NCBI GenBank assembly: GCA_963920665.1 | Contig: OY987272.1 | Location: 13,645,001-13,709,000, forward strand | Source: Straminergon stramineum | Taxonomy: Eukaryota > Streptophyta > Bryopsida > Hypnales > Calliergonaceae | Length of the DNA stretch: 64,000 nucleotides | Direction of reading: 5' to 3' | In this document: in pieces, positions 13,145-64,000 of the stretch | How positions within the stretch are numbered: position 1 is the first letter of the stretch | How the letters are laid out: each line of letters opens with the position of its first letter | Position numbers and translations under genes: made by a program | Notes under the pieces: model-generated | What the model was told of the DNA's origin: nothing | What the model saw: only the letters and a program-made list of their open reading frames with translations | Database searches by the model: none

Positions 13145-13440
13145 TAACTTTAGAAGGACAATGAGGCCCAAAGTGACCAATCAATGACTTTTGAGATTGC
13201 TCTACCAATGAAGAATGCAACCATTAGTCAGAAAATCAAATCATTTTTGACGTAGTACCTTGGTGATGGGTCTTGTCTTTTTAACATTAATTCCTTAAGG
13301 GACAATTAGGACCATCAGTGTCCAATGGATGACTTCATTATTCACTAGAGAAATAAAAAATGCACCTATTAGTTGAATAGTAAAATAGGAGCATTTTGGT
13401 GACTAACTTGGTCATTTGGTCAAAATGAGCCCCTATGCAT
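13145..13440 (+). repeat. diverged tandem duplication, about 145 bp twice
   Basis: Two adjacent units share the order 'aggacaat-agg', 'ccaatgatgac'-like, 'aatgcaaccattag' or 'aatgcacctattag', then 'ttggtgactaac' or related text. The window-limited outer end of the left inverted-repeat arm (13214) falls inside the first unit. Confidence 0.5.
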
Positions 13441-14206
13441 CACCAAGAGAATGCCTGAAAGAAGGAAATTTTGTTTGTTGGATCTAGAAAATGTGGAATA
13501 ATTTGAGAACTACTTGATTACTGAAGTTTCCACGGTTGAGATTTGAAGCCGGCTTATTGAAGAACTCAAATCTGCAATTTATAAGAGAATCCACCATGTG
13601 GATTTCGATATTTGATGAACATGATATCCCACAAATCCTGGTTTCTCAGCATCCAAAAAACGTCCACTACACCGCACAGGGGTTCAGACACCATGGTGCA
13701 AAAGCACTCATGAGGTGCAAATGTTGTATGTTCTAAATGTGACGGAATTTTTAGTACAAACTGATGTTTTCAATCAAGAGATAATAAGAGAAAAAACAAA
13801 CTGGCACGACGTGTACTAATCATTATGCCGAGTCTGCTGACCCATCATTGTCTCATGGATGAGCAGAAGAGGATTATAGTCCGTTCCACGAGCTGTTGGA
13901 ACAATTGCCGTCACACTGCTCCCATAACCGACTGACGTAACGAGCTAAAGTTCAGAGCGCAGGGGGTCCGAATTCCACACATATTGCAGCTACAGCACCA
14001 ATGCCCCAGGATTCCCTGATCATGTTAAACGTATGCAATAAACTCAACAGATAAAATTACAAAAAGCTGGTTCAATACGCCTGAATAGCCTGTCATGTAA
14101 TGGAACCTGCAACAGTAATGAAATCGTTACATCTAAAACCCAACCCTACATACTGCAACAAATATCGAATAAACTCCGCGAATGTACGCTAAATAACTCA
14201 GGTCAC
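13441..14206. other. downstream flank of SMU1 (left copy), no gene found
   Basis: Lies beyond the SMU1 polyadenylation signal. It holds an open frame of 66 codons (13536-13736) with no recognisable family. The base composition is more balanced than in the transposon zones. An undetected small gene or a distal UTR is possible. Confidence 0.4.
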
Positions 14207-14212
14207 TTTATT
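14207..14212 (-). terminator. SMU1 polyadenylation signal (left copy)
   Basis: AATAAA on the minus strand about 630 bases beyond the SMU1 stop codon. It is the first perfect signal I noticed after the gene, implying a 3' UTR of about 0.65 kb. Assignment is by motif only. Confidence 0.4.
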
Positions 14213-14838
14213 GTAACCAACTATACAAAGTGAAATGTCAGACAAAACCAGAACCCCAAAACAGACATAACCACCTAAATAGTACATCCGGTTGCGCGGA
14301 GCTCATCCCAGAATATCATCACCCAACGAATCCCACAGCCCTCCATCACCAATAGGTAGACTACAGCTACACCACAGTTTAGAGATCAACCCGTTTACTG
14401 GTACTGATTCGATAATGGTCGAGTACTCCAGTTCGACGTTGGGAAATGCACTTCCAGTAACCGATCTGAATGCGGATGCGTCCGGGAATTCAATCAAGAC
14501 CGGCGCCAGGAATATTGCCAATACCACGACTAAAGAATATCCTCCATTACTCCGGACTAGGATCAAACCCGACCAGCTGATTGCTCTTGAGAAGTTCACC
14601 CACAAGCCAACCAAAACCGACTCCCTAAACATGTCCACCGGGCAACTCCCACGCATATATCACACGGTGAACTACGACTCAAAACGCTCCACATTGCACA
14701 GTACACCGCCACAGCATGGAGATCGCAGGTCCCACACTCCATCACGATACAACCATGGCGAAGGGAAAGAGCCAAGGAAAATGCCACTCGTACGACTGTG
14801 GGGGGAAAAAAAGGAATAATTATACAAGCAGCTCGTGT

Positions 14839-60700: not shown

Positions 60701-62375
60701 AAGGAGTTTCGAGGGCATAGTTCCTACGTGAATGACGCCATCTTCACGAGCGATGGAGGTCGCGTGATCACGGCGTCTAGCGATGGGTCTGTGAAGGTGA
60801 GCACTGTGGGGTGGAACGCGCGAAGGGAATAGACTCCCGTGGTAGTTGTGGTTTGGTGTTGTGAGCGGGGTCGAGAGGCTTCGTGGCGTCTCCAGGTGAA
60901 ATGTCAGGAGGCTGGCATCATGTCGGGGTCATTTTCGTGAGCTGGAAATATCCGACTCTTGGAGGCGTTGGGTGGTTTTGTTGTGCGTTTTGGTGGGGGT
61001 AATTTTGATGCTCTTTTGGTGGTTTGAGGGGCGTTGTAGAGGGGCTTACTTTGCGCATGATGGTTTGGCAGGTTTGGGACGTGAAGAACACGGACTGTTT
61101 ACAAACTTTCAAACCTCCGCCTCCATTGCGAGTGAGTTTCTCTTCGCCCTCTTTCATTGTTGGGCAGGACTGAGGCCTTGGTGGGTGTAGTATGGCAGCG
61201 CTGGCGACCAGCGGACGACCATGTGGTTGGTGGTGTGGGAGTTGGTCTAACTTGGAGGTGTTGTGTGAGCAGGGGGGCGATGCGACAGTGAATTCCGTGC
61301 ACCTCATGCCGAAGAACCCGGAGCACATCGTGGTATGCAACCGAGCGTCTGCCGTCTACGTGATGACATTACAGGGCCAGGTTTTTGCTCCGATCCTCCT
61401 CGTTTGATAACGGCGGTCAGCTCTCATTTTGTGTTGGGGTTACTTGATTTTCGTGTAAGATCGGGGTGCACCGACTGCGGGTGGGGTTGCATTTAGGAGG
61501 AGGTTTACTGGCTGGCGTATCCTGCAGCCGCCTTGTCGGCTCTTTTAGAAGATGGCAATTGGTTTTGATCATGCGTGGACGCTGACAGCGACGTCGTTGC
61601 AATTGGCAGGTGGTGAAAACTTTGTCTTCCGGAAAGCGAGAAGGAGGTGACTTTGTTGGTGCCACCGTCTCTCCGAAAGGAGACTGGATCTATTGCGTCG
61701 GCGAAGATCGGTGCGTTCCTTCGGATGGTGGATTTCTAAGTTTTTAGGTTTCGAGTCATACATGGGTTCGAGACAGTCGTCGGTAACCGTGTTTCGTGCA
61801 TGGGTTAGGAAGATGTAGTAGGGCGCAGCTAGAGATGAGAGAGCTGGTAGAGTTCGGGGATCTTTCGCTTTGGCGGATGGCGTTCGAATGAGTCGTTTCT
61901 AGGGTTTTCTTAGGAAGGTGCATTGTGTAGCCTCTTGCCAGCTTTTGCGGCGAGCGGTTGTGGTTTGAAAGTGACGGTAGTCCTTATGGGTGCTTTGCTT
62001 TGCTAACAGGAACATTTATTGCTTCAGTCATCAATCAGGCAAGCTGGAGCACCTGATGACGGTAAGTCTTCGCATTGTTTTTGTGGAGTTTTGTTGTCTC
62101 GGATATTTCTTTCCAGTGAACCTCGGCCTTTATGGATGAGGAGGACTTGACGTCCTGGTGTCAGGCTGTGTGGTGTATGTACTTGGTTGTGGCTTTCATG
62201 TCGTGTGGAAGTCGGTCCTTCGTCGTAGTTTTGCAGTCAAGAGGTAGTTGATGCGTGGGCGTATGTGGTTTGGCAGGCTCACGACAAGGACATCATTGGA
62301 GTGACGCATCATCCTCACCGCAACTTACTAGTGACGTACAGCAATGATAACACTATGAAGCTCTGGAAACCTTGA
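57797..62375 (+). CDS. SMU1: SMU1 WD40 splicing factor, right-arm copy
   Basis: Exons: 57797-57825, 57931-58141, 58317-58469, 58721-58769, 58903-58986, 59192-59295, 59447-59533, 59761-59814, 59947-60042, 60323-60450, 60670-60796, 61072-61131, 61273-61380, 61610-61710, 62010-62061, 62277-62375. They total 1,542 nt, giving 513 residues plus TGA, the usual SMU1 length. All 15 introns are GT-AG. The protein starts [14 protein letters not shown] and ends NTMKLWKP. Residues 10-37 form a LisH motif, about 43-95 a CTLH domain, and about 127-131 the conserved YFDPRE end. Residues 153-176 hold the [20 protein letters not shown] linker, and about 212-513 carry seven WD40 repeats with [18 protein letters not shown] and [13 protein letters not shown]1 is a nuclear spliceosomal protein that works with RED/IK in B-complex activation, notably on short introns in human cells. 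The gene is GC-rich against AT-rich surroundings. Exon borders come from reading frame and family similarity, not transcripts. Confidence 0.95.
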
Positions 62376-63001
62376 ACACGAGCTGCTTGTATAATTATTC
62401 CTTTTTTTCCCCCCACAGTCGTACGAGTGGCATTTTCCTTGGCTCTTTCCCTTCGCCATGGTTGTATCGTGATGGAGTGTGGGACCTGCGATCTCCATGC
62501 TGTGGCGGTGTACTGTGCAATGTGGAGCGTTTTGAGTCGTAGTTCACCGTGTGATATATGCGTGGGAGTTGCCCGGTGGACATGTTTAGGGAGTCGGTTT
62601 TGGTTGGCTTGTGGGTGAACTTCTCAAGAGCAATCAGCTGGTCGGGTTTGATCCTAGTCCGGAGTAATGGAGGATATTCTTTAGTCGTGGTATTGGCAAT
62701 ATTCCTGGCGCCGGTCTTGATTGAATTCCCGGACGCATCCGCATTCAGATCGGTTACTGGAAGTGCATTTCCCAACGTCGAACTGGAGTACTCGACCATT
62801 ATCGAATCAGTACCAGTAAACGGGTTGATCTCTAAACTGTGGTGTAGCTGTAGTCTACCTATTGGTGATGGAGGGCTGTGGGATTCGTTGGGTGATGATA
62901 TTCTGGGATGAGCTCCGCGCAACCGGATGTACTATTTAGGTGGTTATGTCTGTTTTGGGGTTCTGGTTTTGTCTGACATTTCACTTTGTATAGTTGGTTA
63001 C
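62376..63001 (+). other. probable SMU1 3' UTR (right copy)
   Basis: Follows the stop codon and ends at an AATAAA signal. It contains a 117-codon frame on the sense strand (62558-62911) and a 175-codon frame antisense (62395-62922; mirror 14292-14819). Neither resembles a known family, and both probably arise because the region is GC-rich. A pyrimidine-rich tract ending in CAG at about 62400-62419 looks like a splice acceptor, so a 3' UTR intron or another transcript is possible. Confidence 0.45.
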
Positions 63002-63007
63002 AATAAA
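63002..63007 (+). terminator. SMU1 polyadenylation signal (right copy)
   Basis: AATAAA about 630 bases after the stop codon; mirror of 14207-14212. By motif only. Confidence 0.4.
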
Positions 63008-64000
63008 GTGACCTGAGTTATTTAGCGTACATTCGCGGAGTTTATTCGATATTTGTTGCAGTATGTAGGGTTGGGTTTTAGATGTAACGATTTCATTACT
63101 GTTGCAGGTTCCATTACATGACAGGCTATTCAGGCGTATTGAACCAGCTTTTTGTAATTTTATCTGTTGAGTTTATTGCATACGTTTAACATGATCAGGG
63201 AATCCTGGGGCATTGGTGCTGTAGCTGCAATATGTGTGGAATTCGGACCCCCTGCGCTCTGAACTTTAGCTCGTTACGTCAGTCGGTTATGGGAGCAGTG
63301 TGACGGCAATTGTTCCAACAGCTCGTGGAACGGACTATAATCCTCTTCTGCTCATCCATGAGACAATGATGGGTCAGCAGACTCGGCATAATGATTAGTA
63401 CACGTCGTGCCAGTTTGTTTTTTCTCTTATTATCTCTTGATTGAAAACATCAGTTTGTACTAAAAATTCCGTCACATTTAGAACATACAACATTTGCACC
63501 TCATGAGTGCTTTTGCACCATGGTGTCTGAACCCCTGTGCGGTGTAGTGGACGTTTTTTGGATGCTGAGAAACCAGGATTTGTGGGATATCATGTTCATC
63601 AAATATCGAAATCCACATGGTGGATTCTCTTATAAATTGCAGATTTGAGTTCTTCAATAAGCCGGCTTCAAATCTCAACCGTGGAAACTTCAGTAATCAA
63701 GTAGTTCTCAAATTATTCCACATTTTCTAGATCCAACAAACAAAATTTCCTTCTTTCAGGCATTCTCTTGGTGATGCATAGGGGCTCATTTTGACCAAAT
63801 GACCAAGTTAGTCACCAAAATGCTCCTATTTTACTATTCAACTAATAGGTGCATTTTTTATTTCTCTAGTGAATAATGAAGTCATCCATTGGACACTGAT
63901 GGTCCTAATTGTCCCTTAAGGAATTAATGTTAAAAAGACAAGACCCATCACCAAGGTACTACGTCAAAAATGATTTGATTTTCTGACTAATGGTTGCATT
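63008..64000. other. downstream flank of SMU1 (right copy), no gene found
   Basis: Mirror of 13214-14206. No recognised gene. The sequence turns AT-rich after about 63700. Confidence 0.4.

Follow-up and report, generated by a model that had tools for sequence, protein, structure and literature searches.

Human nonrecurrent inverted duplications, as described in PMC3907307, carry single-copy spacers of 766 to 70,466 bp together with short inverted homology, and published join-points of human inverted duplications include templated inserts and base changes (PMC6902434). Template switches are described as spanning tens to hundreds of kilobases (PMC2621351). The palindromes of the willow W chromosome are gene-carrying plant inverted repeats more than 99% identical, and in the account in PMC7023750 the shared arms are 20 kb long and present in four copies, W.P1 has a spacer of a few kilobases, the location is sex-linked, and a second species supplies evidence of conversion. 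At HsInv0389, in the FLNA/EMD region, inverted repeats flank a unique segment that recombination can flip, and recurrent inversion was shown by genotyping (PMC3961182).

The window analyzed here, a stretch of 64,000 nucleotides of plant DNA, is best explained as an inverted segmental duplication with an intact SMU1 frame in each arm, likely recent, that is predicted to have arisen when a broken or stalled replication end copied the edge of the right arm; we give this reading a probability of about 0.6. The inverted SMU1 duplication is likely to be real and recent and of an already known kind, with a readable scar at one junction. Like the human fold-back cases of PMC3907307, it consists of two inverted copies flanking a unique spacer whose length lies within the published range, and one of its junctions looks new and shows short homology. 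Those cases are mostly of megabase size, beside terminal deletions and in patients, whereas here the arm can be followed for 9.6 kb, the spacer exceeds those of 20 among the 21 sequenced human cases, and neither a deletion nor a telomere junction is seen. The microhomology, small templated insert, base change at the join, and switch over tens of kilobases are like those attributed to MMBIR and FoSTeS (PMC2621351 and PMC6902434), which these sources describe in humans and microbes; in contrast, this locus is in a plant, and one of at least two breakpoints is visible. The willow palindromes share with it the presence of genes and the near identity of the arms; their copy number, spacer size, conversion evidence, and sex linkage have no known counterpart here. 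If real, the locus would be a plant inverted gene duplication with one breakpoint readable to the base, comparable with human and yeast cases.

Geometry and identity of the arms

The first-pass annotation of this sequence had described a giant near-perfect inverted repeat, and base-by-base comparison bears this out: the intervals 13214-22825 and 54389-64000 are reverse complements of each other, with a coordinate sum of 77,214 and no indel. A repeat search returned arms of 9,612 nt with 31,563 nt between them, in agreement with the arms of at least 9.6 kb and the 31.6-kb spacer that had been claimed.

13214-22825, minus strand: left arm, reverse complement of 54389-64000; its outer end lies outside what the window defines
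54389-64000, plus strand: right arm, truncated by the window end
22826-54388, no strand assigned: repeat-rich spacer of 31,563 bp; 10 of its 12 open reading frames of at least 90 aa were tested, and none reached the cut-off of a Pfam family

The arms differ solely at 22813, which pairs with 54401 and lies 13 bp in from the inner edge, where a single mismatch had been noted previously. Beyond this 13-bp edge there are no differences in 9,599 bp, and the arm-to-arm identity given by blastn is 99.990%. With one mismatch in 9,612 bp, the two opposed copies have the form of an inverted segmental duplication. The next-best inverted pairs in the window are an ungapped pair of 197 nt at 82% and a gapped pair of 737 columns at 77%; because these are far weaker, chance is not an issue for the 9,612-bp arms. 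Since the right arm is cut by the window end (64000 pairs with 13214), 9.6 kb is a minimum arm length. It is conceivable, but in our judgment improbable, that the window is the center of a much larger newborn palindrome formed by fold-back, with arms extending far beyond 9.6 kb, many doubled genes, and a spacer that flips within the species.

Selection, which the annotation had held to be incapable of explaining the identity, is indeed ruled out as its source by the 8,070 of 9,612 arm base pairs that are noncoding and contain the only mismatch. The near-zero divergence across this noncoding DNA is also what would be seen if the duplication were ancient and gene conversion had kept its arms from diverging, the situation known from sex-chromosome palindromes. 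Such a history has a plant precedent in the willow W chromosome (PMC7023750), and conversion tracts would be expected to fade at the edge, which is where the lone mismatch sits. However, identity breaks off sharply at 22826/54388 without a shoulder of intermediate identity, and there is no indel in 9,612 bp. The edge scar described below also resembles a scar of formation, but it informs on origin rather than on age. An old, converted palindrome is considered unlikely on balance.

An apparently native right junction and an apparently new left junction

One dispersed repeat distinguishes the two inner junctions.

53785-54719, plus strand: old dispersed repeat lying over the right junction, aligned with 38341-39299 without a gap at 54389
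38341-39299, plus strand: second copy of the dispersed repeat, in the spacer, used as the outside reference
22495-22804, minus strand: the same dispersed repeat in the left arm, where the match to 38341-39299 stops 21 bp before the junction

Where the repeat alignment runs through 54389, its spacer part (603 columns) is 69.5% identical and its arm part (329 columns) 71.4%. As the old repeat is uninterrupted across 54389, the right junction looks native, and the right-arm edge and the spacer end next to it look like long-standing neighbors. At the left junction, the repeat is cut 21 bp inside the arm, and blastn at an E value of 1e-5 finds the adjoining 1.7 kb of spacer flank (22826-24544) nowhere else in the window, so that 22825/22826 looks new. 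One native and one new junction, around a spacer that is single-copy within the window, is the arrangement characteristic of fold-back or template switching. Recombination between the arms could flip the spacer; the junctions therefore fix the native end of the spacer, and they point to the older arm only indirectly.

The same anatomy bears on the possibility that the genome has a single copy and that the reversed left-hand one stems from a chimeric molecule, a scaffold join made without a gap, or a mix of haplotypes. With one junction looking native, only the other one need be false, and short shared words at joins, such as the one present here, are also typical of chimeric amplification products. 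Overlap or k-mer assemblers need shared sequence to make a false join, but 22826-24544 has no word longer than 15 bp in common with the rest of the window, in addition to having no blastn match. The lack of overlap between the sequences joined at 22826 makes an ordinary overlap misjoin there unlikely. The spacer was not palindromic in the window repeat search, unlike that of a simple fold-back read, which is thereby ruled out. An assembly error may exist elsewhere in the spacer. Overall, we regard an artefact as rather unlikely; if the join were false, the junction anatomy alone, with an old repeat intact at one junction and cut at the other, would flag it as suspect. The annotation had offered a recent duplication, conversion, and a false head-to-head join as three options, and among these the combination of one native junction with one scarred breakpoint favors recent duplication and disfavors an overlap misjoin at 22826.

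A third rival, in which a transposon captured the SMU1 segment and carried it to a second place, would accord with the frequent repeats and LTR pieces in the spacer. The duplicated block, however, ends within an old repeat with no terminal repeat seen at that end, it includes introns and upstream DNA, and no transposon protein family was found above cut-off in the 20 open reading frames tested. Capture by a transposon is highly improbable.

A scar at the left junction

The left junction carries a short composite sequence, parts of which recur at the edge of the right arm.

22813-22839, minus strand: scar at the left junction, comprising an 11-bp word (22829-22839), three bases, the arm edge (22814-22825), and the mismatch (22813)
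54389-54411, plus strand: right-arm edge resembling the scar; the word copy begins at 54401, the position paired with the mismatch

Read from the spacer into the arm, the order is the 11-bp word, the three bases, 12 bases that match the right arm starting at 54389, the mismatch, and then full identity. The word is present in the window only at 22829-22839 and 54401-54411, starting precisely at the mismatch position. The 11-bp word and the 12-bp edge match are the short homology or templated insert found at the new junction. At the mismatch, the right arm has the same base as the outside copy of the repeat and the left arm differs; the left-arm base at 22813 is probably derived, a polarity read from a single outside copy that is about 70% identical. 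Of 200,000 random 40-bp flanks drawn, 514 had an 11-mer match to the right junction in at least one of four comparisons, and alternative versions of the test gave fractions from 0.00015 to 0.003, although these rarity figures are flattered by the word having been spotted post hoc. For a random later mutation, the chance of landing in the 13 bp next to the inner edge is 13 in 9,612.

Origin and age of the duplication

In the template-switch or fold-back reading, a replication end that broke or stalled on the left side of the spacer would use the 11 bases to pair, in inverted orientation, with the right-arm edge 31.6 kb away. Synthesis would then slip back by about 12 bases and recopy 54389-54411 with one error, after which copying would proceed outward through SMU1, from right to left, leaving the left copy as the product. 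We infer that the word primed the switch and that slip-back and recopying followed, with the left copy as the product and no change since. Counting against this reading are the length of the spacer relative to the sequenced human cases (PMC3907307) and the fact that conversion could give the same identity.

The age of the duplication is bounded by the near absence of differences between the arms. A rate of 7e-9 changes per site per year, which is that of Arabidopsis and may differ in the host, was used throughout. If the mismatch belongs to the event (no differences in 9,599 bp), the duplication is younger than about 27,000 years, and if the mismatch is counted as a later change, it is younger than about 41,000 years; both values are upper ends of two-sided 95% limits and hold only without conversion and at that rate.

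The arms are predicted to allow occasional inversion of the spacer through recombination between them. The arrangement is like that at HsInv0389, where recurrent inversion was demonstrated (PMC3961182), whereas here it is a prediction only; if the duplication is real, spacer inversion becomes testable.

The SMU1 gene in each arm

The first lead to the gene was a left-arm open reading frame that matched solved structures of SMU1 in the PDB; the gene was not apparent in a bacterial-style list of open reading frames in the window. The exon layout in both arms was obtained by tblastn with a plant SMU1 sequence as the query, and the predicted exon borders follow a GT-AG model built from genomic sequence.

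14839-19417, minus strand: SMU1 gene model in the left arm, with 16 exons and 513 aa, from the tblastn layout, GT-AG introns, and SMU1 matches
57797-62375, plus strand: SMU1 gene in the right arm, with a coding sequence equal to that of the left copy; coordinates are 77,214 minus the left-arm positions

After GT-AG splicing, each arm contains an intact frame of 513 aa, and the two coding sequences are identical. The predicted product contains LisH and WD40 domains and aligns end to end, over residues 1 to 513, with the SMU1 chain 6q8f_A (E value of 5.2e-240), as is the case for a full-length SMU1. Among the matches listed, which are the best 120 of 1,594 found among 7,994 scored candidates, it is 88% identical to an Adiantum (fern) protein and to cluster P0002. 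In a tree of 37 proteins, the product was placed within the land-plant group (100/98) and outside the fern and seed-plant rows (93/87); its neighbor was Selaginella, with weak support (87/56). The placement makes a non-seed land plant the likely source, probably a lycophyte or a bryophyte.

The copies face outward, and within the arm the coding region is preceded by about 3.4 kb and followed by at least 1.6 kb. If the duplication is real, a core splicing gene has been doubled along with its upstream DNA, and a doubled dose of SMU1 is predicted. Silencing by hairpin RNA formed from the arms was considered and is unproven; the genes face outward and a transcript spanning both arms would exceed 50 kb. 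A literature search for silencing by inverted gene repeats found no paper joining all of the terms, and SMU1 was not mentioned among the matches listed for literature on inverted duplication and plant genomes.

The gene at 14839-19417 is rich in G and T on the sense strand (33% G and 28% T), with 34% G and 31% T in the introns. The introns have about 53% GC, compared with about 30% in the neighborhood.

Repeats and coding content of the window

The arms had been said to contain transposon DNA. Dispersed repeat DNA is present: the arm repeat at 22495-22804 is 68% similar to 38969-39299, and that at 22290-22382 is 84% similar to 46377-46471 (both by blastn). Coding for transposon proteins was not confirmed in the open reading frames tested, which numbered 20 of the 64 stop-to-stop frames of at least 90 aa in the window and included 5 overlapping SMU1; Pfam at curated cut-offs identified no family in any of the 20. 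Scans of the window for tRNA genes and Rfam families gave no matches.

Two kilobases of the spacer, 28001-29000 and 36001-37000, are very AT-rich, with GC contents of 19.2% and 20.1%. Diverged repeat pairs with 75 to 79% identity occur in the left flank and spacer (3531-4276 with 5116-5885, 10123-10854 with 51288-52008, and 48726-49192 with 51279-51749). The interval 46846-51055 resembles a solo LTR, with a TG start, a CA end, and a 5-bp direct repeat (AGGAC) on both sides. This putative solo LTR is interrupted by an insertion of about 2.9 kb (47851-50756), and over its first 1,005 bp it shares 97.8% identity with 24545-25548.
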